Part shown: one piece after another, positions 12,553 to 37,462 of the stretch
How the letters are laid out: every line of letters starts with the position of its first letter
Numbering within the stretch: position 1 is the stretch's first letter
Source: a virus
Virus record (IMG/VR): IMGVR_UViG_3300044499_000007
Coordinates: 1-37,462 of that record
Reading direction: 5' to 3' (one strand)
Length of the DNA stretch: 37,462 bases
Notes under the pieces: model-generated
The model's database searches: none
The model's input: only the letters and a program-made list of their open reading frames with translations
Told to the model about the DNA's origin: nothing
Position numbers and translations under genes: made by a program

Positions 12553-13200
12553 ATGACTCGGAAGGAGATTTTGGATGTCATAGCCTGTGGCGGTAACCTG
12601 CGCGGGGCAGACCTGCGCGGGGCGGACCTGCGCGAGGCGGACCTGCGCGGGGTGAACCTGCGCGAACTGGACCTGCGCGGACTGGACCTGCGCGGGCTGG
12701 ACCTGCGCGGGATGAACCTGCGCGGACTGGACCTGCGCGGACTGGACCTGCGCGGGGCGGACCTGCGCGGGGCAGACCTGCGCGGGGCGGACCTGCGCGG
12801 GGCGGACCTGCGCGGGGCGGACCTGCGCGGGCTGGACCTGCGCGGGGCCTCCGGGCTGCTGATGCTAGCGACTCCGCCGGAGGAAGACAGCTTTATCGCC
12901 TATAAGAAGGTCGACGGGGTGGTGCTCACTCTCAAAATCCCCGCTGGCGCAAAGCGCACTGGCAGCTACGTCGGCCGCAAGTGTCGGGCGGAATACGTCA
13001 TCACCCTGACGCCCGGTGTCCGGGGCCTGCTGTCGGCCTACGACGAGGATACGACCTACACGACGGGCGTGGTGACCAAGGCGGATTCATACAATGATGA
13101 CCCGCGCTTGGAGTGCACAAACGGCATTCACTTTTTCATGACACGCCAAGAGGCGGAGGGCTGGGGATGCCTGCATGCCATTCTGGCGGCTCCTTCATGA
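12553..13200 (+). CDS. Pentapeptide-repeat protein with DUF5758-like domain, 215 aa
   Basis: After a 14-residue leader, residues 15-99 are 17 consecutive pentapeptides of the type D/N-L-R-G/E-x, which should fold as a right-handed beta-helix. Residues about 106-200 (FIAYKKVDGVVLTLKIP, GAKRTGSYVGRKCRAEYV) match the DUF5758 domain that often follows such repeats. Some pentapeptide proteins mimic DNA and act on gyrase, but here each repeat carries both Asp and Arg, so a DNA-mimic role is not implied. The last codons after the MTRQEAEGW block come from a 70-base inverted copy of polymerase sequence, so the original C-terminus seems to have been replaced. The ATG follows AAAGGGGTAAGAC. Confidence 0.85.
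   Translation: MTRKEILDVIACGGNLRGADLRGADLREADLRGVNLRELDLRGLDLRGLDLRGMNLRGLDLRGLDLRGADLRGADLRGADLRGADLRGADLRGLDLRGASGLLMLATPPEEDSFIAYKKVDGVVLTLKIPAGAKRTGSYVGRKCRAEYVITLTPGVRGLLSAYDEDTTYTTGVVTKADSYNDDPRLECTNGIHFFMTRQEAEGWGCLHAILAAPS
12595..12849 (+). repeat. 15-base tandem repeat coding for 17 pentapeptides
   Basis: Seventeen in-frame units close to GACCTGCGCGGGGCG. The five units at 12745-12819 are nearly identical at DNA level, whereas earlier units vary at the fifth residue (Ala, Val, Leu, Met). This points to recent expansion of the later units by slippage. Confidence 0.92.
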
Positions 13201-13232
13201 TTCGCTCGAATTCGGACAACGCATCCTTTTGG
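13163..13232 (-). repeat. 70-base inverted copy of DNA polymerase 3' sequence
   Basis: These bases are the exact reverse complement of 21873-21942. In the polymerase gene the sequence encodes normal protein; here it is antisense and straddles the end of the pentapeptide gene, supplying its last residues and stop. This copy is therefore probably the secondary one. Confidence 0.92.
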
Positions 13233-13286
13233 TTAGCTCCAGCACTGAAAACCCTCAGCGAAGCGCACGCGGTTTTCGGAGGCTAT

Positions 13287-13523
13287 ATGGTTACGGTGGA
13301 CGCGGTAGCACGTAAGCCGGATAACCGCCCGGCGGACCACGAGGCACTACGGGGCCGCGGGCGGGCCCCAAGCGACCCCACGGGCTGTCCAGAATCCTAC
13401 CACATTGGTCAAGGCGGGACGGTGCTTTGTACCAGAGACGACGGCCATGCGGGGCACCACATGCATGCAAACGAGGCAAGTCTGATTACGGCTGAATGGT
13501 GGTTCACTGCGCGGGATGAGTGA
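13287..13523 (+). CDS. Small Cys/His protein of unknown function, 78 aa
   Basis: The ATG at 13287 follows TTCGGAGGCTAT, a strong site. An in-frame ATG at 13197 overlapping the upstream stop would add 30 residues, but those come largely from the inverted polymerase copy, so the shorter form is preferred. The sequence has GCPESYHIGQ and TVLCTRDDGHAGHHMHAN, a Cys plus clustered His pattern that might bind zinc, and ends AEWWFTARDE. The Cys-x-Gly-His-x-Gly-x-His type tail occurs in unnamed small phage proteins. Confidence 0.65.
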   Translation: MVTVDAVARKPDNRPADHEALRGRGRAPSDPTGCPESYHIGQGGTVLCTRDDGHAGHHMHANEASLITAEWWFTARDE

Positions 13524-15867: not shown

Positions 15868-16131
15868 ATGGCACTACATTTGACAGTAGAAGGGCGGAGG
15901 ATATTAGGTAGCGGGGCGGACCGGGTACAAGCCACGCTCGACAGGTTGGAGGACGCGCTCCCACAACCAAGCGATGAGGAGGCCGATTTTGAGGATTTTC
16001 TTGCACTGGGCGCCCTCTGGTATTACGTCCTGTCGGACTTGCTACTTCAAAAGGACGATAGGGACCTGTCGGAACTGCACCGCGAGGCCCAGTTGCTCTC
16101 GGGCCTCTTGACAAGTGACTCAGAAATGTGA
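15868..16131 (+). CDS. Helical protein of unknown function, 87 aa
   Basis: It starts MALHLTVEGRRILGSG and continues with acidic helices (QPSDEEADFEDFLALGALWY). It lies six bases after the coiled-coil gene, after AAGGAGTAGTACGCA. No recognised motif. It is probably co-translated with its neighbours. Confidence 0.68.
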   Translation: MALHLTVEGRRILGSGADRVQATLDRLEDALPQPSDEEADFEDFLALGALWYYVLSDLLLQKDDRDLSELHREAQLLSGLLTSDSEM

Positions 16132-16144
16132 TAAGGAGACCACC

Positions 16145-16366
16145 ATGAAGGCATACCACGGGGATAAGAAGGGTTCGTTGGAGTTTTTGAGTGGCCATGC
16201 GGGTGCGTGCCGCCTCTGGAGGTCTCCCGGGAATGGCCAGAAGGGCGGTTACGTCACGGGGCACGGGGGCCTGTCGAAAAAGCCCAGCAAGGCCCTCATT
16301 TTCAACGGCTCGGGCGGGGCCATCAACATGGCCCAGCGACTTGGGTTTGCCGTTCTTAGCTGGTAA
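16145..16366 (+). CDS. Small Gly/Lys-rich protein of unknown function, 73 aa
   Basis: The ATG at 16145 follows ATAAGGAGACCACC; a longer frame from 16115 has no such site. The chain is basic and Gly-rich (GNGQKGGYVTGHGGLSKKPS), with INMAQRLGFAVLSW at the end. No family recognised. Confidence 0.68.
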   Translation: MKAYHGDKKGSLEFLSGHAGACRLWRSPGNGQKGGYVTGHGGLSKKPSKALIFNGSGGAINMAQRLGFAVLSW

Positions 16367-16378
16367 ACAGAGGGCATT

Positions 16379-16669
16379 ATGAGCAAGTCCGTCCGCAGTC
16401 AGGTAGAGAGCGTTTTGGCGTCCGCGGGTATCAAGAAGGGCAAGAAGTCTGGTGGCAAGAAGTCTGGCGGGATGAGGAAGTACGACCGCGAGCGCAAGCG
16501 CCATGCCAGTGCCATGCGATACACGTCTGAAAAGCGCTGGGCCACGAATCGGTTGCGCCGCATTCGGCGCCACCTGAAGCGCAACCCGGGGGCGCGGGAC
16601 GCCCGGTCCATTCTGGCCGCCGAGGGCACGGCGGCGGACCACGCCATGCTGGCCAAGCTGCCCGCGTAG
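16379..16669 (+). CDS. Highly basic small protein, probable nucleic-acid binder, 96 aa
   Basis: Lys/Arg-rich throughout: GIKKGKKSGGKKSGGMRKY near residues 17-35, then RERKRH and NRLRRIRRHLKRNPGARD near 57-74. The middle looks like a basic helix. The charge suggests binding to DNA or RNA; no named fold is recognised. It precedes the 76-base structured repeats. Confidence 0.68.
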   Translation: MSKSVRSQVESVLASAGIKKGKKSGGKKSGGMRKYDRERKRHASAMRYTSEKRWATNRLRRIRRHLKRNPGARDARSILAAEGTAADHAMLAKLPA

Positions 16670-16685
16670 CCGCAATGCATAATTC

Positions 16686-16837
16686 TCCTCCCGGCCGGAG
16701 GCCCGCGCTGGACGCGGGCATGATGTACGACCGGCCGACGGTAGGCGGAACCTACCGCGCGTCCTCCCGGCCGGAGTCCCGGGCTGGACGTGGGCATGAT
16801 GTACGACCGGCCGACGGTAGGCGGAACCTACCGCGCG
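16686..16837 (+). repeat. Two tandem copies of a 76-base structured element
   Basis: Copy 1 is 16686-16761 and copy 2 is 16762-16837; they differ at only a few bases. Each ends with a hairpin CGGTAGG, CGGAA loop, CCTACCG (first at 16739-16757) and contains CATGATGTACGACCGGCC. The period is not a multiple of three, so it is not a protein repeat. An RNA element or protein-binding region between two early genes is likely. Confidence 0.82.
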
Positions 16838-16839
16838 GC

Positions 16840-16870
16840 GCCCGGCGCGATAAGTCCCCGGGCACTTTTT
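16840..16870 (+). terminator. Weak intrinsic terminator or attenuator
   Basis: GCCCGG (16840-16845) and CCGGGC (16858-16863) form a six-pair GC stem with a 12-base loop, followed by AC and TTTTT. It lies directly after the 76-base repeats and before the next gene, so it could reduce read-through inside the early unit. Confidence 0.5.
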
Positions 16871-16889
16871 AAACAGAGGAGCGCAAGTG

Positions 16890-17072
16890 ATGGACGGGCC
16901 CGCCCGAAAGCGCGTCAAGGTAATCCGGCAAGAATTGGAGTTTGCCCCGGAGCCCGAGCTTAGAGCGCGCTACCTCGAAATTTACGGGGCCACTGCCGCG
17001 ACCACCATCCCAACGGAGCGTATACGAGAAAGTCTTTACGAGGCATGCGACGAGTTATTGGAGGAACCATGA
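16890..17072 (+). CDS. Small charged protein of unknown function, 60 aa
   Basis: The start is ATG 16890 or GTG 16887, after CAGAGGAGCGCAAGT. The product begins MDGPARKRVKVIRQELEF and ends with an acidic helix (YEACDELLEEP). The stop overlaps the next start as ATGA. Function unknown. Confidence 0.65.
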   Translation: MDGPARKRVKVIRQELEFAPEPELRARYLEIYGATAATTIPTERIRESLYEACDELLEEP

Positions 17073-17197
17073 GCGCGCTTTACTTTCTAGCCGTTGTGGG
17101 CGCCGTCCTATTGGTGGACATGTATATTAGTTGGCGTATTCGCCGGTCGCAGGACAGGGGGCCAAAGGTCCACGACGCGGGTACGTGGCTGGGCTAG
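17069..17197 (+). CDS. Single-pass membrane peptide, 42 aa
   Basis: The ATG overlaps the upstream stop (ATGA). MSALYFLAVVGAVLLVDMYI is one membrane segment, followed by a basic SWRIRRSQDRG stretch, so the C-terminus should face the cytoplasm. It is one of four tiny membrane peptides in the early unit. The stop is followed at once by GGAGG. Confidence 0.58.
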   Translation: MSALYFLAVVGAVLLVDMYISWRIRRSQDRGPKVHDAGTWLG

Positions 17198-17343
17198 GAG
17201 GTACTGGCGTTGGCGCTGCCGGGCGGTCTTAGAGCGGCTAGGCCACGCTTGGGTGCTAGCGGCTGTGTTACACGGAAAAGCCGGAGTGTTAGAGGTGCAG
17301 TTAAATCGACTGAACGGGTTACTTAACGTGGAGGTAGAAAACC
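17198..17343 (+). other. Gap with an unassigned ribosome site and unclear short frames
   Basis: GGAGG at 17197-17201 is eight bases before a TTG at 17210 that would open a 38-codon frame ending at 17326. Another frame through the same stretch (to 17366) reads more like protein near its end (VLEVQLNRLNGLLNVEV), but has no ribosome site. I cannot decide whether a gene is present, or one has been broken here. Confidence 0.35.
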
Positions 17344-17880
17344 ATGGCAGGCCATACAAAGAGTGACGTATCGGCGGAGGACAGAGCGGCAATTGCGTTG
17401 GAGCGAATTGCCATTGCGGTTGAACGGTGGACGAAGGGGGATACTACTACTACTACACGTCCTACTGGGCATATCGCGGAGAGCACTTCTCCGGAGAAGG
17501 AGAGTGCCGCGGGTACGCTTAACCCGCCTAGCGGACCTGTCCCAACATATGAGCCCCCGAGTGTCAAGGAACCCGTTGGAACCCTGAAGGAAGAGACCGC
17601 CAAGCTGCACGCGGCCGTTGGGGCTGCGGCCCCGGACCCTGTGGCGGACCTGTTGGGCGAGACCACTCCGGAGCGACTGGCCACCTTCGAGGAGGCCCGA
17701 GCGGCACTCATGAGCGCCGCACAAGACCCGCCGAAGGGCATTGGCCCGGAGAAGGTTCTTGGGGTGCTCAAGAGCGCCCTGTCCGTGGACCGCCTGTCGA
17801 AGATTCCAGTTACAGATAAGGCCGCGTTTGGCCGGTTCCTGACGGCTATCGAAGCGGCTACCGGCGGCAGGAGAGAGTAA
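17344..17880 (+). CDS. Protein of unknown function before the DUF2800 nuclease, 178 aa
   Basis: The ATG follows GTGGAGGTAGAAAACC. An N-terminal helix (EDRAAIALERIAIAVERW, about 11-28) is followed by a long Thr/Pro/Ser-rich linker (about 33-80) and a C-terminal helical part (VLGVLKSALSVDRLSKIP). The stop overlaps the DUF2800 start, so the two are co-translated and it may assist that nuclease. No known motif. Confidence 0.75.
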   Translation: MAGHTKSDVSAEDRAAIALERIAIAVERWTKGDTTTTTRPTGHIAESTSPEKESAAGTLNPPSGPVPTYEPPSVKEPVGTLKEETAKLHAAVGAAAPDPVADLLGETTPERLATFEEARAALMSAAQDPPKGIGPEKVLGVLKSALSVDRLSKIPVTDKAAFGRFLTAIEAATGGRRE

Positions 17881-19031
17881 TGGCAAGCCCTCCGCCATTC
17901 CGGACGGGCCCCGGACACGCCAAGCTGTCTCCATCCAAGGCGCGCACATGGATGGAGTGTCCGGGGTCCGTCCGGATGGCGGAGGGCTTGCCGGACGAGG
18001 CCGGTGACGCCGCGCGAAGTGGCACGGCCTGCCATATGCTACTGCACGACCTATTGGAGGGGCGCCCCGGCCACTCACAGTATTTAGTAGACGAAGCGGT
18101 AACGGTTCCTATTACGTTTGAAATGCGGGAACATGTAGGCGAAGTGGCCGAATGGGTCTGGGACTATTTACGCTCCGACATAAACGCAAACGCCCAAAGC
18201 GAGGTCTTGGTCCAAATTTATGGACAAGACGTGTGGGGAACGGCCGACGTTATAATCAGCAGCCCGTACGAATTGGTGGTAGTGGACGCCAAGTTTGGTT
18301 TTAATGAGGTTGAGGCAAAGGATAATCCACAGCTATTATCCTACCTGCTTGGTGCCCGGCTTCAGCGTGCCGACCTGCGCACCATGCGCGTCGTAATCCT
18401 CCAGCCCCGGTGTGGTCGGCCGAAAGAAGAGATTGTGACACGGGCGGAGCTAGATAGTTTCTCGGACAGGCTTATAGCGGCAGTCAAGGCAACGCAAGAC
18501 CCGGACGCGCCGCTGCGTGCCAGCGCCGGGGCATGCCATTGGTGCCCTGCGGCGGCGGTGTGCCCTGAGAATCAAAAGCTCACGTTGGCGATTGCGCGTA
18601 ATGAGTTTTCCATTATCCCAGAGCGTCTTACGCCCGCGCAGTTGAGCGAGATTCTTTTCAAGGCCAAAGCTATTCGACAGGCGGTAGCGGCTGTAGAGGA
18701 ATACGCACTTCAAATGCTGGCCGTGGGACGTGACCTTCCGGGCTGGAAGCGGGCGATGCCAAACACTCACCGGCAGTGGCGCGACGGGGCGGAGCAGGAA
18801 CTAATAAAGGCGGTGCCCCTACTTGACATTGACTCAAAGTTGTTGTATACAGTACCGGAGCTAAAGTCACCCGCACAGGTGGAAAAGGTACTGAAGATGA
18901 AACCGGGCGGATTATCCGAGTATACCTGCAAGCCCGAAGGGAGCCCGGTTTTGGTGCCGGACTTAGACCCGAGGCCAGCCATTTCGGCTGACTTTGGGGT
19001 TGTAGCGGATATAAACAGTGAAAAGGAGTAG
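17880..19031 (+). CDS. DUF2800 PD-(D/E)XK nuclease (RecB/Cas4-like), 383 aa
   Basis: The N-terminal LSPSKARTWMECPGSVRM (Cys27) is the classic opening of DUF2800. The nuclease core GTADVII (Asp123) and VVVDAKFG (Asp136, Lys138) gives the PD-(D/E)XK catalytic set. CHWCPAAAVC (Cys219, 222, 228) with Cys27 is the four-Cys iron-sulfur cluster pattern of Cas4/AddB-type nucleases. Such proteins are encoded with DUF2815 and a family A polymerase, exactly as here, and are thought to act in phage recombination or replication. All key residues are present. Confidence 0.9.
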   Translation: MASPPPFRTGPGHAKLSPSKARTWMECPGSVRMAEGLPDEAGDAARSGTACHMLLHDLLEGRPGHSQYLVDEAVTVPITFEMREHVGEVAEWVWDYLRSDINANAQSEVLVQIYGQDVWGTADVIISSPYELVVVDAKFGFNEVEAKDNPQLLSYLLGARLQRADLRTMRVVILQPRCGRPKEEIVTRAELDSFSDRLIAAVKATQDPDAPLRASAGACHWCPAAAVCPENQKLTLAIARNEFSIIPERLTPAQLSEILFKAKAIRQAVAAVEEYALQMLAVGRDLPGWKRAMPNTHRQWRDGAEQELIKAVPLLDIDSKLLYTVPELKSPAQVEKVLKMKPGGLSEYTCKPEGSPVLVPDLDPRPAISADFGVVADINSEKE

Positions 19032-19033
19032 TC

Positions 19034-19210
19034 ATGGCATTCAAGTTCAAGACGACGGTTGATGAGAAGGGCAGCACGATTCACCACGGTACGTGCGGAC
19101 ATGAGTACCCCGGGTCCGGCAAGCGTGGGCGGCCGTTTACGGAGTGCCCGAAGTGCCGCAAGGCCGCGGGCACCACGGGGGCAAAGCGCGCGGCCAAGTC
19201 TCTGGTCTAG
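19034..19210 (+). CDS. Zinc-ribbon-like small protein, 58 aa
   Basis: The ATG follows AAAAGGAGTAGTC, two bases after the nuclease stop. The sequence has TCGHEYPGSGKRGRPF then CPKCRKAAG, giving Cys/His plus Cys-x-x-Cys for zinc binding, with a basic Lys/Ala tail. It is wedged between the DUF2800 and DUF2815 genes, so it may bind DNA together with them. Confidence 0.72.
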   Translation: MAFKFKTTVDEKGSTIHHGTCGHEYPGSGKRGRPFTECPKCRKAAGTTGAKRAAKSLV

Positions 19211-19236
19211 TTCAACGCACAAGGAGGTTTAAAAGA

Positions 19237-19863
19237 ATGGCAAAGGTGGCAGAAAATCTGAATATGCCAACTGCGGTTGGCGTCTACGTGAACCTGTTTA
19301 CTCCGAGGGAGCCACCTCCGGCCAAGCTGGGGGAAAAGCCCAAGAAGCCGAAGTACCAGATTACCCTGCTGTACGACAAGCGGACGGCTCCAACGGTCCT
19401 GAAGGACTTTATGTCCGCTGCGGTTCGGGTGGCAGATGCCAAGTGGCCCGGCAAGGGCGCAGCCATTATCAAGGGAATGGTTTACCCGCTCCTGCGCGAC
19501 GGCGACGGTACGGCGCTGGAGGGTGGCCCCCTGCCGCCGGAGTTCCACGGCAAGTGGTTCATCAAGGTCCAGACAAACGCCGACCCGCGGCACAGGCCTC
19601 CGCAGATTGTGGATGGCCGAAAGCAGATGGTGCTCGACGATGATGGCGCATATAGTGGCTGCACGTTCAACGTGAGCGTTCGGCTGTACCCGTTTGGCGG
19701 GGAAGGTACCACCTACAAGCCGGGCGTTGGAATCGGCCTGAATAACGTTCAGGTCGTGGCGCGCGGCCCCCGACTGGACGGACGCAAGACGGCGGACGAG
19801 GAATTCTTGGAAGTTGAGGGTAGCGAGCCGGTCGCAGATGGCCCCTTCTCGGGTCTCGTCTAG
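19237..19863 (+). CDS. DUF2815 ssDNA-binding protein, 208 aa
   Basis: The ATG at 19237 (MAKVAENLNMP) follows CAAGGAGGTTTAAAAGA. The GVYVNLFTPREPPP opening, PKYQITLLYDKR strand, an aromatic GKWFIKVQTNADPRHRPP loop and CTFNVSVRLYPF fit DUF2815, a family linked to phage single-stranded DNA binding. A C-terminal acidic stretch (DEEFLEVEGSEPVADGPF) resembles the acidic tip of SSB proteins that recruits partners. It lies between the nuclease and polymerase genes, its usual neighbours. Confidence 0.87.
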   Translation: MAKVAENLNMPTAVGVYVNLFTPREPPPAKLGEKPKKPKYQITLLYDKRTAPTVLKDFMSAAVRVADAKWPGKGAAIIKGMVYPLLRDGDGTALEGGPLPPEFHGKWFIKVQTNADPRHRPPQIVDGRKQMVLDDDGAYSGCTFNVSVRLYPFGGEGTTYKPGVGIGLNNVQVVARGPRLDGRKTADEEFLEVEGSEPVADGPFSGLV

Positions 19864-19871
19864 AGGCGGCT

Positions 19872-20066
19872 ATGGCCAAGTGCAGTGCGTGCAACGGGAC
19901 GCCAAATGTGATTCACGTTTTTCCTAATGTGTCCCTGAATGACTATGACCCCGAGGTGAAGCTCAGTCCGTACCGGGGCCCTACCTGTTGCTCGCACTGC
20001 CGCGGTACTGGGATTGACCCGGAACCCGACCCAATCGAGGATTGTGACTGGGACAGTAATGACTAG
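19872..20066 (+). CDS. Double CxxC zinc-finger small protein, 64 aa
   Basis: CSACNGTP and CCSHCRGTGIDPEPDP carry two Cys-x-x-Cys pairs in the CxxCxG type of the DnaJ zinc finger. The acidic end (DPIEDCDWDSND) overlaps the polymerase start by eight bases. It may chaperone or bind DNA next to the polymerase; the function is not known. Confidence 0.72.
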   Translation: MAKCSACNGTPNVIHVFPNVSLNDYDPEVKLSPYRGPTCCSHCRGTGIDPEPDPIEDCDWDSND

Positions 20067-21984
20067 CTATTTCTATCTAGACTTCGAGACCCGTAGCGCG
20101 GTGAACCTGCGCCGAGTCGGGGCCTACCGCTATGCAGAGGACCCGTCAACGGAGCCTATTTGCGCCGGTTGGGCGGTGAATAGTGGCCCAGTTAACCTCT
20201 GGCGACAGGGAGAGTCATCTCAGTTTCTAAACCTGCTAAAAGACCCGGGGGTATTAGTTGTCGCTCATAACGCGGAATTTGAGCGGGAAATTCTTGCACA
20301 AAAGTTCCAGCTACGATTGCCGCCTAGTCGGTTTCGATGTACCGCCGCACAGTGCGCAAATATGAGCTTGCCACGCAAGCTTGAGACGGCCGGTACCGTC
20401 TTGCAGTTGGAGCACCTTAAGAAAGCGGAGGCCGGGCACCGGCTTATAAACAAGCTGTCCAAGCCGCGTCGGGCGTCCAAGGCCAATCAGGACCGGTTTT
20501 GGACGCCGGATACGGCGCCAGAGGACTTCTCCGAATTCGAGGACTACAACATCGGGGACGTGGAGGCGGAGCGCGAGCTACATCAGCTATTGCCAGCCCT
20601 GTCCGAGCGGGAGCAAAAGCTGTGGGAACTAACGGTCGAAATGAACGAGGCCGGTATTCGGCTCGACGTTGAGGCCGTAGGGTGGATGGAACGTGCGGCA
20701 GCGGAGGAATCGGCCAATCTGACCGTCGAGTGGATGCGCCTGACGGGGGTAAAGCCGGGCTCCAAGGGTGCGGCTAAAGCGGTCGGGCTGGAATCTTTGG
20801 CGAAGTTGGCAGTGCGACAAGCGCTCCGGCGCCGTGACCTTCCCCCGCTGGTTCGAGAGGCGCTAAGGGTCCGGCAAATGCTGGCACGCACATCGCTCCG
20901 TAAACTTCCGAGAATGCGGGCGCAATTGTGTGTGGATGGGAGGCTCCGGGGCGCCATGATTTACGGCGGGGCGGAGCGCACTTTGCGTTGGGCCGGAAGC
21001 GGAGTCCAGCTACACAACTTCCCCCGCGGGCTCGGGTCTGCACAGGCGGAAGCGTATGATGCACTGGAGCGCGGCGTGTTGCACCTGCTGTACGACGACG
21101 TGCTGCACACCCTGTCGGACATGCTCAAGGGGCTCATGACGGGCCCGTGGCTTATTGGGGACTTGGGCCAGATTGAGGCGCGTAACCTCGCATGGCTGGC
21201 CGGGGACAAAAAGCTCCTACAGGACTTTGCAAACGGGGTTGACATTTATTGTGACATGGCGTCCACCATCTATGGGCGGCCCGTGACAAAGGCCGACTAT
21301 GACTCTGTGTTGAAGGTGCCTAAACGACAATTAGGCAAGATGGCAATTCTGGGGTGTGGCTACGGCATGGGCGCAAATACGTTTAGAGAACAAGCGGAAA
21401 AGGATTATGACGTACTACTGGACGAGGATACGGCGAAAAAGGCAGTCTATTCCTACCGCAAGCGGTTTGTTCGTGTTCCGGCGCTTTGGTATCTTTTGGA
21501 GCGCGGCATGGTACGGGCCGTCGAGACTCGGGCAAACAGAATTGCCGTTGGTCCCGTCAAAATGGGCGTGCGGGATATCGGCGGGCGCCATTTCGCTTAC
21601 ATTGAGCTACCATCGGGACGGGCTGTTTACTACTTTAATCCCCGGGTAGACCGTGGCGAAGAGGGAGACGAACCTCCGCGCATCAGCTACGATGGGCGCA
21701 ACCGCTGGACGCACAAATGGGGGCGCATTGAGTCCTACGGCGGGTTCCTGACGGAGAACGTGGACCAAGCGGACGCCCGGGACCTGCTGGCGCATTCGAT
21801 GCTGGAGCTAAAGCGTGCCGGGTTTAGGATGGCGTGGACAGTGCATGACGAGAACGTGGCACATGACGACGGCCAAAAGGATGCGTTGTCCGAATTCGAG
21901 CGAATCATGAAGGAGCCGCCAGAATGGCATGCAGGCATCCCCCTGTCTGTTGATGCGTTCCAAAGTTGGAGGTATCACAAATGA
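20059..21984 (+). CDS. Family A DNA polymerase with 3'-5' exonuclease, 641 aa
   Basis: The start is ATG 20059 (MTSYFYLDFETRS). Exonuclease motifs: Exo I DFE (Asp8, Glu10), Exo II VAHNAEFERE, Exo III YNIGDVEAEREL. Polymerase motifs: A GDLGQIEARNLAWLAGD (Asp368), B KRQLGKMAILGCGYGMG (about 421-437), C TVHDENVAHD (Asp597). All catalytic residues are present, so it should be a proofreading replicative enzyme. The type is the one usually found with DUF2800 and DUF2815. The 70 bases at 21873-21942 recur inverted near 13200. The stop overlaps the next start (ATGA). Confidence 0.95.
   Translation: MTSYFYLDFETRSAVNLRRVGAYRYAEDPSTEPICAGWAVNSGPVNLWRQGESSQFLNLLKDPGVLVVAHNAEFEREILAQKFQLRLPPSRFRCTAAQCANMSLPRKLETAGTVLQLEHLKKAEAGHRLINKLSKPRRASKANQDRFWTPDTAPEDFSEFEDYNIGDVEAERELHQLLPALSEREQKLWELTVEMNEAGIRLDVEAVGWMERAAAEESANLTVEWMRLTGVKPGSKGAAKAVGLESLAKLAVRQALRRRDLPPLVREALRVRQMLARTSLRKLPRMRAQLCVDGRLRGAMIYGGAERTLRWAGSGVQLHNFPRGLGSAQAEAYDALERGVLHLLYDDVLHTLSDMLKGLMTGPWLIGDLGQIEARNLAWLAGDKKLLQDFANGVDIYCDMASTIYGRPVTKADYDSVLKVPKRQLGKMAILGCGYGMGANTFREQAEKDYDVLLDEDTAKKAVYSYRKRFVRVPALWYLLERGMVRAVETRANRIAVGPVKMGVRDIGGRHFAYIELPSGRAVYYFNPRVDRGEEGDEPPRISYDGRNRWTHKWGRIESYGGFLTENVDQADARDLLAHSMLELKRAGFRMAWTVHDENVAHDDGQKDALSEFERIMKEPPEWHAGIPLSVDAFQSWRYHK
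21873..21942 (+). repeat. Polymerase-gene copy of the 70-base inverted repeat
   Basis: It encodes normal polymerase C-terminal protein (SEFERIMKEPPEW), so it is the likely source of the antisense copy at 13163-13232. The two copies are about 8.6 kb apart and identical. Confidence 0.92.
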
Positions 21985-22130
21985 TTATTGTTGCGAAGGG
22001 TGCCCTTATCGTCGGCGCGGTCGGGTTCATGGTGGCCGGGTGGGCAGTGGCCCGTACTGGCCGGGTGACCCTCGGTATTGGCTACCTCGCAATTGCGGTG
22101 GCCAATCTGGCATTCGCTAGGAGCCTGTAA
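21981..22130 (+). CDS. Two-segment membrane peptide, 49 aa
   Basis: The ATG overlaps the polymerase stop and the TAA overlaps the next ATG. Hydrophobic segments are MIIVAKGALIVGAVGFMVAG and IGYLAIAVANLAFA, joined by a short WAVARTGRVT loop, so a membrane hairpin is likely. Function unknown. Confidence 0.6.
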   Translation: MIIVAKGALIVGAVGFMVAGWAVARTGRVTLGIGYLAIAVANLAFARSL

Positions 22131-22483
22131 TGGCAAAGCGCACAGACAGCCCGCTGGAATTAGCAATGGAGCGCAAAGCGGTTGAGTGGCTGGCCGACCA
22201 TGGCACAGACAGCCCGCTGGAATTAGCACTGGAGCGCAAAGCGGTTAAGTGGCTGGCTGACCATGGGTGCGTGGCGCTTAAGATGGGCAGTAACGGTTGG
22301 CCGGACCGGTTGGTGCTACTGGGGCACGACCTGCATTTTTGGGTTGAGTTCAAGCGGCCGTGTGGACGTTTGACACGGGCACAACGGCTGGTCATACCAA
22401 GACTGGAAAAGATGGGGGAAACAGTGGTGTTGGCAGTGTCGCTGGACGAGGTAATACAGGCGTACCACGTAACCAAGGACTAA
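22130..22483 (+). CDS. VRR-NUC nuclease with duplicated N-terminal helix, 117 aa
   Basis: The VRR-NUC core is present: ERKAVKWLADHGCVALKMGS, GWPDRLVLL, and FWVEFKRPCG (Glu and Lys of the PD-(D/E)XK set), then LTRAQRLVIPRLEKMG. Stand-alone VRR-NUC proteins in phages are nicking or Holliday junction-type nucleases. The N-terminus carries two near-identical 21-residue units (TDSPLELAMERKAVEWLADHG-like), where one helix is normal. This is a recent 63-base tandem duplication, in frame. It follows the polymerase group and should act in DNA processing. Confidence 0.85.
   Translation: MAKRTDSPLELAMERKAVEWLADHGTDSPLELALERKAVKWLADHGCVALKMGSNGWPDRLVLLGHDLHFWVEFKRPCGRLTRAQRLVIPRLEKMGETVVLAVSLDEVIQAYHVTKD
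22141..22266 (+). repeat. 63-base tandem duplication in the VRR-NUC gene
   Basis: 22141-22203 and 22204-22266 differ at only three bases by eye. The unit is 21 codons, so the frame is kept. Confidence 0.9.
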
Positions 22484-22485
22484 TT

Positions 22486-22917
22486 ATGAGAATCTATGTC
22501 GGAGCGAAGTTTGAGAATAAGGACGCCGTACGGCAGGTCCACAGGCGGTTGCGTGACGTGGGGCATGAAGTCTCCTACGACTGGACGCCACACTCGGTGC
22601 AGGGGTACGTGAATACTGCGCTGGTTGACAAAATGCGCTATGAGGCCGAGGAGGACTATGTTGGGGTGTTAAGCGCTGACGCCATTATTTTCCTGCACGA
22701 CTCCAATTGTCAAGGCGGGTTTATTGAGCTTGGCATTGCACTCGGGATGGGCAAGGTGGTCTGCGTGGTTGGCGGGCGCCCGGACGGTCAACGCTTCCCG
22801 ATTTTCTATTTCCATCCCCGCGTGCAAATGTTCGACACGGTGGAGGCCGCGATTCGGTTTCTGACATGGACCGACGGGGCCTTTGCCCGGCCTACCGAGA
22901 CTACCTATGACCGCTAA
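22486..22917 (+). CDS. Nucleoside 2-deoxyribosyltransferase-like protein, 143 aa
   Basis: The start is ATG 22486 (MRIYVGAKFENKDAV). The sequence has the family layout: an N-terminal IYVGAKFE strand-loop, a GHEVSYDWTPH segment, VLSADAIIFLHDS and the GGFIELGIALGMGKVV block with the expected catalytic Glu. Relatives cleave or transfer the base of deoxynucleosides, and some phage members act on nucleotides. It overlaps the next gene (DUF5664), which also handles deoxynucleotides. Confidence 0.8.
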   Translation: MRIYVGAKFENKDAVRQVHRRLRDVGHEVSYDWTPHSVQGYVNTALVDKMRYEAEEDYVGVLSADAIIFLHDSNCQGGFIELGIALGMGKVVCVVGGRPDGQRFPIFYFHPRVQMFDTVEAAIRFLTWTDGAFARPTETTYDR

Positions 22918-23437
22918 GAAGACGCTGCCGGAAGATGCCACGGAGCGCAAGGCCCTGCCGCTCCAGTCGGGTGTGCTGGACTATTTCCCTGCGGCACTGA
23001 TTGAGGTTGCCAAGGTATCCAAGGTTGGCAACGACCAACACAATCCCGGGAAACCTCTGTACTGGGCCCGGGGTAAGAGCAACGACCACGCGGACGCGCT
23101 CCAGCGGCATCAGCTTGACCACGGTGGCGTGGACAAGGATGGGCTGCTGCACTCGGCCAAGGTGGCATGGCGGGCACTGGCACAGCTTCAGGTGGAGCTA
23201 GAGGCCGCAGGGGCCCCGCTAGCGCGCGGCGCGCAGGGGCCCACCGCGGACCGCTCGGTAGCATCATGTGTCATGACGTGTGAAGAGTATTGGGACGCAC
23301 GCGCCACCTTGCGTAATCAGGGCCAGTTGGCGGTTCATGCCGTGGGCGTGTGCTCCCTGTGTGACACTATGCATATTAGTCTTCCGGAGAATTACGATAT
23401 TGTGGTCCCTTACCCGCCGCATTTTGCGAAGCAGTAG
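22907..23437 (+). CDS. DUF5664 dATP/dGTP diphosphohydrolase-like protein, 176 aa
   Basis: The start is ATG 22907 (MTAKKTLPEDATERKALPL), overlapping the previous stop. The block ERKALPLQSGVLDYFPAAL, then VGNDQHNPGKPLYWARGKSN and HADALQRHQLDHG, is the DUF5664 (dGTP_diPhyd_N) signature, a family related to the dATP/dGTP hydrolases of phages with modified purines. The C-terminal about 60 residues (EEYWDARATLRNQGQL, CSLCDTMHIS) are additional and have a Cys-x-x-Cys. It may adjust the host dNTP pool. No PurZ-type synthetase is present in the window. Confidence 0.8.
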   Translation: MTAKKTLPEDATERKALPLQSGVLDYFPAALIEVAKVSKVGNDQHNPGKPLYWARGKSNDHADALQRHQLDHGGVDKDGLLHSAKVAWRALAQLQVELEAAGAPLARGAQGPTADRSVASCVMTCEEYWDARATLRNQGQLAVHAVGVCSLCDTMHISLPENYDIVVPYPPHFAKQ

Positions 23438-24888
23438 TGCGCCCTCGTTCCGCACTATGGCCCTCACAAGTGGCCGCAATTGAGCGGGCCAAATGCCTGC
23501 CCCTAGTCGCGTTGATGGACGTGGGGTACGGTAAGACAGCCATTGCAGAAACGGCCCTGTCCGACCTTGGCATATTTCCGGCACTGGTTGTTGCCCCGGC
23601 CGCCGTGGTCGAGACGGATATTTGGGGTGAGGAGGCCCAGCAGTGGGAGCATTTGTCCGACCTTGTGGTGACCCCAGTGCGGGGCACGGCAAAGGAGCGG
23701 CTACGCCGGTTGAAGACAGATAGTCAAATATTTACCTTGAGCTATGATAGCCTGATTTGGCTCAATTCCCTCTTAGGCACAAATAAGCTTTCTCGTCTCT
23801 TCAAGTCCGTCGTATTTGACGAGGTACAGCGCATGAAGACTCCGGGGTCGAAGCGCTTCCGCCGAATGCGCGCCCGGGTGGACGTGCCAGCGCTGGGGCT
23901 GACCGCCACACCTGTAGGCAACCACCTACTCGACTTATGGGCGGAAATGTTCATCGTGGCCGGGAAAGCTCCACTGGGGCCTACGTTTACTAGCTACAGA
24001 GACCAGTATTTTGAATCAATAGACTACTGGGGCCGTGTGTGGCGGCTTAAGTGTTGCTCAGAGTGTAGGTCCGACAGGGATGGATGCGTGCCGCGGCACG
24101 GCTCCAGACCCTACCTCGACTGTGCGTGCCATCGGGCCCAGTTGGCGGACCTGCGACGGCGTATCGCCCCGTACGTCTACCAGTCTTCGACTCCCCCGAA
24201 GGTGCTTGGTATCCCGCCGGTCCACATCAACCCCATTCGGGTACCCATGCCGGGGGCAGTCCTGCGGCTAGAAACTGACCTTGTAGGCCAGTTGTGGGCC
24301 GTCCTGCCCTCTGGGGCTGAGCTAGAGGCCCTAGAGGCCAGCACGGTGGCCCAGAAGCGTAGACAAATCGCCGGAGGGGTCGTCTACACCGGGGCGGCCG
24401 GAGACGCCGAGGCTTGGGAGATTGTCCACACGGCCAAGCTTGACGCGCTGGACGCGCTGCTAGACCAGCTACAAGGCCAGCCCGCCATCGTCTACTATTG
24501 GTACCACCATGAGGCACTAGCCATCAAGAAGCGGCTGGCGGGCCGGGCGTGGCGGGACTTGATGACGTACACGGACATGCCCGGGGCGGTCCGAGAGTGG
24601 AACGAGGGGCGGCTGGAGGTATTGCTGGCGCAACCCAAGACCGGCGGCGCCGGGCTCAACTTGCAAGGAGGGGGGCATCATGTGGTATGGTACACCCTCC
24701 CGTGGAGCGCGGAGGTCATGCACCAAGGCAACGGCCGAGTGGCGCGACCCGGGCAAGCGGCTGAACGGGTAGAGTCTCACTGGCTCATGTGCGGACCCAT
24801 GGATGACCGGGTAGCAGAGGTCTTGCTAAGGAAGCTAGACACGCAACGTGAAGTTATGCGGTCTCTGACCGCATATGATTTGGTATGA
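23437..24888 (+). CDS. SNF2/DEAD-type helicase, 483 aa
   Basis: A GTG start overlaps the upstream stop (TAGTG). Motif I is MDVGYGKTA (usual MGLGKT), motif II is DEVQ instead of DEAH/DEFH, motif III LTATPVG, and the C-terminal lobe has AQPKTGGAGLNLQGG and QGNGRVARPGQ (motifs V and VI). It should be an ATP-driven DNA translocase or helicase. Between the lobes, at about residues 206-233, is a Cys-rich insert (CCSEC, DGC, DCACH) that could be a zinc finger; this is not part of the usual core. It follows the nucleotide genes and precedes a phosphoesterase. Confidence 0.88.
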   Translation: MRPRSALWPSQVAAIERAKCLPLVALMDVGYGKTAIAETALSDLGIFPALVVAPAAVVETDIWGEEAQQWEHLSDLVVTPVRGTAKERLRRLKTDSQIFTLSYDSLIWLNSLLGTNKLSRLFKSVVFDEVQRMKTPGSKRFRRMRARVDVPALGLTATPVGNHLLDLWAEMFIVAGKAPLGPTFTSYRDQYFESIDYWGRVWRLKCCSECRSDRDGCVPRHGSRPYLDCACHRAQLADLRRRIAPYVYQSSTPPKVLGIPPVHINPIRVPMPGAVLRLETDLVGQLWAVLPSGAELEALEASTVAQKRRQIAGGVVYTGAAGDAEAWEIVHTAKLDALDALLDQLQGQPAIVYYWYHHEALAIKKRLAGRAWRDLMTYTDMPGAVREWNEGRLEVLLAQPKTGGAGLNLQGGGHHVVWYTLPWSAEVMHQGNGRVARPGQAAERVESHWLMCGPMDDRVAEVLLRKLDTQREVMRSLTAYDLV

Positions 24889-26774: not shown

Positions 26775-26795
26775 GTGAGAGGAGGGCATCCCGCA

Positions 26796-28739
26796 ATGCC
26801 CATCAAGAAGCTACCGGTTACAGAATGGCATAAAAACATCCCGTTCGGGATGCGCGCTGTGCCACACTGGGTTGGGCACCGCAATAAAAAGCCTATATCC
26901 ATCGTTACTGGGCTAGCGGCCAAGGTCAATGACTCTTCCACATGGGGCTCGTTTGAAGAGGCAAAACGGTTTTATGAGCAAACGCTAGCAGACCCGTTGG
27001 CCGGGGTTGGCTTCGTTTTCGACGGGTCTGAGGGTATGACGTTTATTGACCTTGACCACGTAATAGCTGATGGCAAATGGACCGGCCCGGTAGAGCTTCA
27101 GTCGCTCATGGCTGGAGCATCCGGAGAAACCTATGCAGAAATAAGTCCCAGTGGGACGGGTATACACGTCTTCGGGTTGGCCGTCCTTCCGCTGGTTGCT
27201 AAACACTCTATCAAGGTGGAAGGCGCAGGACTTGAAGCATATTCTTCAGGGCGGTACTCAACCGTTACCGGTTTACGTATTAGCGCGGCTCAACTCGGCG
27301 CCATCCAATCACGCGTTAATAGGGTTGCTGAGGCCCTTGGGCACAGTGGCCCGGAAGAAACGCCTATTGAAGCGCCGGAGCCGGAGCGCGCCGAAGAGAT
27401 AATTTCCGCCCTATCCCACCTTGACCCGGACATGCCGTATGTCGATTGGCTTAGGGTTGGCATGGCTCTGCGGGCCGGGCTGGGGGCCGCCGGGCGTCAG
27501 GTGTGGCTTGCATGGTGTCGAGACGGCGAGAAGTACCACCCGGGCGAGCCGGAAGAGAAATGGCGCAGCTTCCAAAAGGGTGGTGTCGGCCTTGGCACCT
27601 TGCTTCAGATGGCGCAGGATGCGGGCTGGGAGGCCGGTAACCGCCCAACGGCCGCGGACGACTTCGCCATCTTGACAGGGGCGGCAACTATCCGTGGTCT
27701 TGATGGCGGCGGCCTGAAGCTGATACCGTTGGCCGAAGTGAAGCCGGAGAAAATCGACTGGCTGTGGAAGGGGTATATTGCCCTTGGGCACTTAACCCTA
27801 GTGGCCGGGGACCCGGGCCTCGGCAAGTCTATCATGACCCTAGACCTTGCGGCCCGCCTGTCGCGCGGCGTCCCGCTGCCCGGGGACCCTACTATCCGGC
27901 CGCCAGCCCGGGTGCTCCTATTAAATGCGGAGGATGGGCAGGCGGACACCCTGCGCCCCAGAGCTGGAGCAGCCGGAGCAGACCTATCCAAGGTAGTCGT
28001 GCTGGATATTCTGCACGGGGGCCGTCCCCCACAACTGCCAGACGACGTGCACCTGCTGGAAGACTACATCAAGCAGGTTGGCAACGTCAGTATGGTGGTG
28101 CTGGACCCCCTCAACGCCTGCGTGCCGGTCCGGCTGGATTCACACAAGGACCAGCACGTACGACAAGCGCTCCAGCCGTTGGTTGAAATGGCCATGCGAC
28201 TGAAGGTGGCCGTAGTCGTTGTGGTGCATCTTAATAAGACGGCGGACGCGGGCGCGCTCCTGTACCGCATTTCCGGGTCAATCGGCATCGGTGCTACCGC
28301 ACGGTCTGCCCTGTTCGTTGGGAACCACCCTGAGAACGAGGGTGAGCGCGTGGTAGCACAGGCTAAGCCGCAGATGGGCCCAGCGCCCGCTTCGCTCTCC
28401 TTCCGCGTGGACCCGAGCGCGGCTGACCCGGATATCGGTGTGGTCAATTGGTTAGGCGAGTCTGAAATGGACGCGGGCGACATAGTAATGAAGAAGGAGC
28501 ACCCGGAGCCCCGGGGGAAGCTCGACCAAGCCGCCATGTGGCTGGAGGCGCGGCTGGCCAACGGCCCGGTACCCGCTGCGGAGGTGTTGGCGGAGGCACA
28601 GGCCGTCGGGTTCGGCCCCAAGACGCTGCGGGCGGCTCACAACAAACTCGGCCCAGACCTGCGGAAGCGGGAGGGTGGAGCGGGCGCCAATGGGCGTTGG
28701 GTGTGGTACGGACCGGAGCCGTTCGTGGAGATTAAGTAA
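26796..28739 (+). CDS. Primase-polymerase / RecA-type ATPase fusion, 647 aa
   Basis: The ATG at 26796 (MPIKKLPVTEW) follows GAGAGGAGGGCATCCCGCA. Domain 1 (about 1-190) is a phage NrS-1-type prim-pol: FIDLDHV (Asp85, Asp87), SPSGTGIHVFG (His124). Domain 2 (about 195-265), ALSHLDPDMPYVDWLRVGMA through WCRDGEKYHPGE, is a PriCT-2-like linker. Domain 3 is a RepA/RecA-like helicase ATPase with Walker A GDPGLGKS (about 338-345) and VVLDPLNAC as Walker B. The C-terminal 80 residues look like a winged-helix domain. It should start and unwind replication. No separate primase or DnaB-like helicase is present. Confidence 0.9.
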   Translation: MPIKKLPVTEWHKNIPFGMRAVPHWVGHRNKKPISIVTGLAAKVNDSSTWGSFEEAKRFYEQTLADPLAGVGFVFDGSEGMTFIDLDHVIADGKWTGPVELQSLMAGASGETYAEISPSGTGIHVFGLAVLPLVAKHSIKVEGAGLEAYSSGRYSTVTGLRISAAQLGAIQSRVNRVAEALGHSGPEETPIEAPEPERAEEIISALSHLDPDMPYVDWLRVGMALRAGLGAAGRQVWLAWCRDGEKYHPGEPEEKWRSFQKGGVGLGTLLQMAQDAGWEAGNRPTAADDFAILTGAATIRGLDGGGLKLIPLAEVKPEKIDWLWKGYIALGHLTLVAGDPGLGKSIMTLDLAARLSRGVPLPGDPTIRPPARVLLLNAEDGQADTLRPRAGAAGADLSKVVVLDILHGGRPPQLPDDVHLLEDYIKQVGNVSMVVLDPLNACVPVRLDSHKDQHVRQALQPLVEMAMRLKVAVVVVVHLNKTADAGALLYRISGSIGIGATARSALFVGNHPENEGERVVAQAKPQMGPAPASLSFRVDPSAADPDIGVVNWLGESEMDAGDIVMKKEHPEPRGKLDQAAMWLEARLANGPVPAAEVLAEAQAVGFGPKTLRAAHNKLGPDLRKREGGAGANGRWVWYGPEPFVEIK

Positions 28740-28828: not shown

Positions 28829-30052
28829 TTACATGTTTGCGATACCAATAAGCTCTACAAAGCTATTCGCAAGAACCGTAACTGCCGACGCGTCCACTTC
28901 TGACAAGAGGCATAGCACAACGGTGCCTGCGGTATTTGCGGTAAACTGCGCGTAGAATTCGACGATTTGCGCGGTAGCCTCTGTAGTCCCAAACGTGCCA
29001 GTAGTACGGGCTGGCGTATCGGTTATTGCCACGGCTTTTATATATTCAACAGTACCGGCTGCATTTCGCGCGGACATGACCGAATGAAACCCTATCATAG
29101 ACGGCCCTCCGGTACTCCTAATGCCAAGGCCGAACCCAGTTGTTGAGGCCGCGGCATAAACCAACCCATTAAAGCGCACACGGTAATTTATACCTGACGT
29201 GACCTCAAAAGAGGTTGTCGGCAGGTCTACCGCCACAGTAGTGGACGAACATACGGCGTTCGCAGACTGCCTTCGCCCATGCCACATGGCATAATACCTC
29301 TCTATCGACAAACCTGCCAGCCCGGTTAGCTCTCCGGCGCCGGTAATTTTTAGCTTACTGATAGCTACGTTAGCAAAATCAAACAGGGTCGCCGCATTGC
29401 CAACGATAGATGGTCCGTTGCTTAGAGTGACGGGTCCGCCGTTGAAAGTTAGATTCGTACCGCCCATCGTGACGAATCCGGCCGTATCAACCTTAAATCT
29501 ACTCGTACCGTTATTCTGTACGTTGAACAAGCTGCCTGCGGTCCGCGTATTGATGGTATTGAGAGTAAAATCGACTCCCGCACCAGCCGCTGCCTGCTGG
29601 GACGTACCAACAAGAAGGCCCGGGGCCACAATGTTTAGTACATCGGCAGTGGCATTCTGAACCTTGAACAAGCTGCCTGCGGTCCGCGTATTGATGGTAT
29701 TGAGAGTAAAATCGACTCCCGCACCAGCCGCGGCTAATGTGGAAATAAACAGCGTGGATGCCGTCATTTTTAGCCGGTCTGTTCCGGCAACGGTAAAACG
29801 TGCATCATTAGCCCCGGCTCGGTACCATCCGGTTGTCGGCTCCAAGGAGAACGCCAGTCCCGGGGCGCCAACTGCGCCGGAAGTCAGCAAAAGCGGGGCC
29901 AGCATGGCGCCCTTACCGGACCGCGACAGGCTGTCCGTCACCTCTGGGCCGAGGTCGTTCAAAGTCGTATTCGCCCATGACGCCTGAATTGTAGTTCCCG
30001 GAACAACATTTGGCAGCGGGAGCGAATAGGTGCCACTAACGTTGCGTGCCAT
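28829..30052 (-). CDS. Tail fibre or receptor-binding protein, 407 aa
   Basis: The N-terminal MARNVSGTYSLPLPN and ASWANTTLNDLGPEVTDSLS are typical of podovirus fibre N-termini that attach to the tail. The middle is beta-repeat rich and has two copies of AGVDFTLNTINTRTAGSLF, 47 residues apart, and the C-terminal half (YRVRFNGLVYAAASTTGFG) is a Thr/Ala/Val-rich beta domain that probably binds the receptor. The start overlaps the previous stop (TAATG). It is the last late gene. I see no intramolecular chaperone or enzymatic motif. Confidence 0.82.
   Translation of the reverse strand: MARNVSGTYSLPLPNVVPGTTIQASWANTTLNDLGPEVTDSLSRSGKGAMLAPLLLTSGAVGAPGLAFSLEPTTGWYRAGANDARFTVAGTDRLKMTASTLFISTLAAAGAGVDFTLNTINTRTAGSLFKVQNATADVLNIVAPGLLVGTSQQAAAGAGVDFTLNTINTRTAGSLFNVQNNGTSRFKVDTAGFVTMGGTNLTFNGGPVTLSNGPSIVGNAATLFDFANVAISKLKITGAGELTGLAGLSIERYYAMWHGRRQSANAVCSSTTVAVDLPTTSFEVTSGINYRVRFNGLVYAAASTTGFGLGIRSTGGPSMIGFHSVMSARNAAGTVEYIKAVAITDTPARTTGTFGTTEATAQIVEFYAQFTANTAGTVVLCLLSEVDASAVTVLANSFVELIGIANM
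29523..29731 (-). repeat. 68-base direct repeat in the tail fibre gene
   Basis: 29523-29590 and 29664-29731 are identical, 141 bases (47 codons) apart. The frame is preserved. It could let the fibre gain or lose a module by recombination. Confidence 0.92.
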
Positions 30053-37282: not shown

Positions 37283-37462
37283 TTACCAAGGCCTATTGTT
37301 TCTAAGTGCGGCAATGCGAGCCTGCCACGGCACCTGCGGTCCGCCTCTCGGCATGTAGGCCCCCTGCATGCCGGTCTGCATGCCGGGAGGCGGCCTGTAG
37401 GTCCCCTGCATGCCGGGAGGCGGCATGCCGGGAGACGGTATGTAGGCCCCCTGCATGCCGGT
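37283..37462 (-). CDS. Pro-Gly-Met repeat protein, C-terminal part (cut by contig end)
   Basis: Continuing from base 1, this half encodes TGMQGAYIPSPGM, PPPGMQGTYRP and TGMQGAYMPRG units, then a unique end PQVPWQARIAALRNNRPW with stop at 37285-37283. The frame agrees with the N-terminal half through the shared 99 bases, giving 95 residues in the shortest closed form. If bases 37462 and 1 are joined directly without overlap, the frame is lost, so the ends must overlap or lack bases. The adaptor gene starts 10 bases after the stop. Confidence 0.75.
   Translation of the reverse strand, partial: TGMQGAYIPSPGMPPPGMQGTYRPPPGMQTGMQGAYMPRGGPQVPWQARIAALRNNRPW
37350..37462. repeat. Pro-Gly-Met tandem array and right copy of the terminal redundancy
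   Basis: Units TGCATGCCGGTC and TGCATGCCGGGAGGCGG continue the array from the left end. The last 99 bases (37364-37462) are identical to 24-122. Confidence 0.9.

Follow-up and report, generated by a model that had tools for sequence, protein, structure and literature searches.

A podovirus-like phage genome has probably undergone a recent templated insertion, in which a double template switch placed a net 66 bp of antisense DNA polymerase sequence at the 3' end of a pentapeptide-repeat gene. The window analysed here spans an entire IMG/VR virus record (37,462 bases), and its protein families suggest a podovirus-like phage: the major head protein belongs to phrog_9953 and the portal to phrog_12082, the nearest named head proteins are those of Stenotrophomonas phage BUCT555 and the Myxococcus phages Mx8/Mx9, and a family-A polymerase is encoded together with an Enc34-type single-strand-binding protein. 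A near-identity search with the first 25 kb of the window against annotated phages gave no match. The mutation is of an ordinary kind, although this is an unusual and striking example of it. If real, it is a cleanly caught change of a phage gene's end by a long-distance, two-junction template switch, with the C-terminus of a protein renewed from the coding sequence of the phage's own polymerase, read in antisense.

The acquired copy occupies 13163-13232 on the plus strand and is the reverse complement of 21873-21942, with 70 of 70 bases identical and 8640 nt between the two arms. A 70-bp perfect inverted repeat cannot be attributed to chance, as the expectation for a 70-nt match in 37 kb is about 10^-33 by our own arithmetic, and the pair is the sole spaced inverted repeat of at least 20 nt in the window. 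The complete identity of the arms implies a recent event. Comparison of the flanks shows that the arms end exactly at 70 bp and cannot be extended on either side: the first copy, which begins with GGGGATGCC and ends in CTTTTGG, is preceded by GGAGGGCT and followed by TTAGCTCC, while the polymerase copy, read in antisense, has CAGACAG before the same bases and CCGTCGTC after them. The preliminary description of this DNA had reported the repeat, the natural reading frame of its polymerase copy and its contribution to the end of the pentapeptide gene, and all three are borne out: the polymerase copy reads QKDALSEFERIMKEPPEWHAGIP, and the other copy supplies the last codons of the pentapeptide gene and its stop, TGA at 13198-13200.

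The donor copy at 21873-21942 (plus strand) lies within the family-A polymerase gene (20014-21984, plus strand; Pfam PF00476), the product of which is 50-53% identical to the polymerases of two sister phages. It encodes near-C-terminal polymerase sequence (...QKDALSEFERIMKEPPEWHAGIPLSVDAFQSWRYHK) that aligns with the C-termini of relatives, for example RIMTQVPEWAEGLPL in a sister phage. Since the polymerase relatives align through the donor region, with endings RYRK, RYGK or KYEK, the polymerase copy is the donor, which has been retained, and the copy at 13163-13232 is the derived one. A miniature transposon with GGATGC/GCATCC ends was considered and ruled out, as the donor is conserved polymerase coding sequence.

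The recipient is a pentapeptide-repeat/DUF5758 gene of 215 aa (12553-13200, plus strand; Pfam PF00805 and PF19062), whose last 11-12 codons and stop derive from the repeat. The DUF5758 match is complete to the end of the Pfam profile and stops at residue 201, and DUF5758 homologues in about 60 viral loci end at about residues 203-206 in the numbering of the window protein, with endings such as EAEAWG, EAEDWV, EAEEW and EAEDY. The repeat begins at residue 204, beyond which the relatives extend by 0-5 residues. This comparison of C-termini, proposed as a check in the preliminary description, thus places the left edge of the repeat where the family stops; the window protein exceeds the family end by about 10-11 residues, all of them from antisense polymerase sequence. 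One paralogue group (L036/L037/L040) carries a natural 9-residue tail, so a longer tail is not abnormal in itself, and it is the coincidence of positions that carries the argument. When genome contigs were scanned with the pentapeptide protein, most matches were to the repeat domain and lacked the DUF5758 end, and no mention of DUF5758 was found in the literature searched. The pentapeptide region at 12585-12870 consists of near-identical 15-bp units (GACCTGCGCGGGGCG) and is slippage-prone.

The repeat has GGGG at its left edge and GG at its right, so that anything from zero to four G may have stood at the ancestral join. Of the five resulting readings of the empty site, two give an immediate in-frame stop: EAEGC-stop with one G and EAEGWG-stop with four. 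The latter is favoured, with a net insertion of 66 bp and microhomologies of 4 nt at the exit and 2 nt at the return, since EAEGWG-stop fits the family and no base is lost. The protein relatives end at the insertion point, and one join of the flanks yields the expected family ending. The restored stop is supportive only, as it would arise by luck about one time in five among five readings by our own estimate. The left junction, GGCTGGGG at 13159-13166 (plus strand), contains the GGGG common to target and donor, at which a nascent strand could switch template. At the right junction, GGTTAG at 13231-13236 (plus strand), the GG is possibly shared, and if the empty site had four G, TTAG would contain the in-frame TAG with which the gene originally ended (GGT TAG). 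The acquired copy would be flanked or overlapped by the GGGG at the exit and, under the four-G reading, by the GG at the return; with so few bases, such microhomology is low in information. A short hairpin is possible at the favoured join, but it is a weak candidate for a strong replication-stalling target, since equal scores are reached by 3.5% of random joins and by 4.3% of contiguous sites.

The proposed course of events would begin during synthesis of the strand ending ...GAGGGCTGGGG at the 3' end of the pentapeptide gene, when the nascent 3' end would leave its template. Its GGGG could then anneal, 8.7 kb away, to the C run of the polymerase gene (about 21939-21943), where 66-70 nt of antisense polymerase sequence would be copied before the strand returned, through the GG microhomology, to within a few bases of its point of departure. 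With this net 66-bp insertion, the gene would have lost its original stop (EAEGWG-stop in the favoured reading of the empty site) and its product would have gained some 10 residues as a new tail, ...EAEGWGCLHAILAAPS-stop. A double switch in which the strand comes back to where it left accounts for the insert itself, for its orientation and edges, and for its perfect identity. The capture of antisense polymerase DNA by template switching, already suggested in the preliminary description, is therefore well supported by the anatomy of the repeat, the ends of the relatives and the microhomology at the joins.

A chimera formed during MDA or library preparation and fixed in the assembly at low coverage would produce some of the same features. 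MDA chimeras are inverted in 85% of cases, mostly join sequences less than 10 kb apart and are primed at 2-21 nt of complementarity (PMC1855051), and the first junction found here, inverted, 8.6 kb from its donor and with GGGG, fits this pattern. The window is also an IMG/VR virus record for which no corroborating record was found: exact searches of IMG/VR with the 70-mer and with the left flank gave no match and yielded no second isolate or strain with a filled or an empty site at the nucleotide level, in a database that may omit the window's nearest records. However, an artefact would need two junctions 66 bp apart, with a return to almost the same base, whereas the typical MDA chimera has one junction and a deletion, and the chimeric form would need to be more abundant than the true sequence to be the one assembled. 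The neighbouring genes stand in an order that matches the sister phages, and no comparable inverted repeat (at least 35 nt, more than 300 nt apart) occurs elsewhere in the window or among 228 related viral loci, some of them overlapping, with a combined length of about 3.35 Mb. An artefact is thus an unlikely though serious explanation; reads carrying GGCTGGGGTTAGCTCC would point to an artefact or to a mixed population. The repeat could alternatively be filler at a translocation or deletion junction, with polymerase sequence patching a join between a pentapeptide gene and downstream genes that were formerly not neighbours. The pentapeptide gene, found in neither sister phage, has the look of an accessory gene acquired by this phage, and the downstream ORF has no found relatives; nevertheless, one reading of the empty site restores the exact expected family ending and stop without loss of sequence, which makes filler quite improbable. 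Taking insertion and filler together, it is likely that the event is real, the remaining possibility being a library artefact.

The preliminary description had further proposed that recombination between the arms could flip the early segment between them. Inverted repeats do flank the segment, and identical inverted arms of 70 bp offer phage or host recombinases sufficient length to act on. Inversion of 13.2-21.9 kb, whether programmed or recurrent, is nonetheless scarcely credible in view of the sister phages IMGVR_UViG_3300037424_000696 (G001) and IMGVR_UViG_3300037483_000881 (L236). The second of these was recovered with a two-sequence polymerase alignment as the IMG/VR query; a single-sequence polymerase search of IMG/VR had given no match. 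In both, the genes of the interval (DUF2800, ssDNA-binding protein and polymerase; 16115-21984) and those of 22130-24888 are found in one order on one strand. The conserved genes inside the segment (at 16115, 17880, 19144 and 20014) and outside it (22130-24888) share one strand and are collinear in G001 and, where present, in L236; no flipped form was found, and the orientation of the conserved genes is constant in both sister phages. This implies that the present orientation is ancestral. As no DUF5758 gene was detected in G001 or in the 21.5 kb of L236 searched, neither sister has a left arm and the inversion system is not conserved. Nor is the inverted repeat itself a conserved phage element, given its absence from the 228 related loci. 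A simulated flip gives a polymerase of 651 aa ending in GIPSPPPLGVS in place of 656 aa ending in RYHK: SPPPLGVS replaces LSVDAFQSWRYHK, so that the last 13 residues, including the widely conserved RYxK-like end, are traded for 8 unrelated ones. Such an alteration of the polymerase C-terminus makes a functional switch unlikely. Most early genes would in addition face against the operon, and the segment would therefore not offer working genes in both orientations. Rare recombination between the arms is possible, but the product phage would probably be unfit, and the proposed flip is not supported. Long inverted repeats in environmental virus contigs are accordingly not necessarily invertible switches, and read-level checks are needed.

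The templated insertion can be compared with several known systems. In the four-point model of template-switch mutations by Loytynoja and Goldman (PMC7954356), as here, a reverse-complement copy is placed between flanks, exit and return lie near one point, and a perfect inverted repeat is made; the model deals with local switches inside a single replication fork, whereas the present copy of 66-70 nt comes from a donor at a distance of 8.6 kb. Quasipalindrome-associated template-switch mutations of E. coli (PMC7202029) likewise show that prokaryotic switching yields inverted-repeat sequence, but they arise at a local imperfect inverted repeat, in contrast to the weak target hairpin and distant donor of the phage. 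Templated insertions and microhomology-mediated break-induced replication (PMC8421209, PMC11724301) share the short copy from elsewhere, the switch or break and the microhomology; they are described in eukaryotic cells, while the present case concerns a phage genome. The resemblance to MDA chimeras (PMC1855051) in inversion, a distance below 10 kb and a few bases of microhomology is offset by the clean two-junction insertion, where these chimeras normally have a single junction and a deletion.

The insertion is most likely a neutral passenger. If the antisense copy were instead kept for a function, an early transcript would bear a 70-nt perfect antisense of the 3' region of the polymerase mRNA, and pairing in cis or trans would lead to RNase III processing or to lowered polymerase expression; we regard this as very improbable. 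The RNA fold of the inserted region is no better than that of shuffled sequences (z -0.66), and promoter and terminator scans remained at or below chance level. The repeat had also been credited with a possible start for the next gene at 13197, a claim that now appears weak. No ribosome-binding site is visible at 13197, while the next ORF (13287-13523, plus strand), for which a search for relatives found none, has a likelier start outside the repeat at ATG 13287, with GGAGG at 13278-13282. The start of the next gene was therefore probably not created by the repeat.

Several other features of the genome were observed. The primase/helicase gene (26775-28739) lies at the end of the early block in the window, upstream on the same strand in G001 and upstream on the opposite strand in L236, so that its place differs in each of the three related phages. 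The ends of the record (1-221 and 37353-37462) share 99 identical bases within a 12-bp tandem repeat array (TGCATGCCGGTC); instead of a true terminal repeat, this may be the trace of a circular or permuted genome that assembly broke within the array. Within the minus-strand late gene 28829-30052, an 81-nt stretch is repeated at 29513-29734 with a spacing of 141 bp and 96% identity. Two recent-looking tandem duplications of 95-96% identity, of 76 bp (16686-16837) and 63 bp (22140-22265), imply that other copying errors have occurred in the lineage; the 63-bp duplication repeats 21 residues near the N-terminus of an endonuclease/Holliday-resolvase-like protein.
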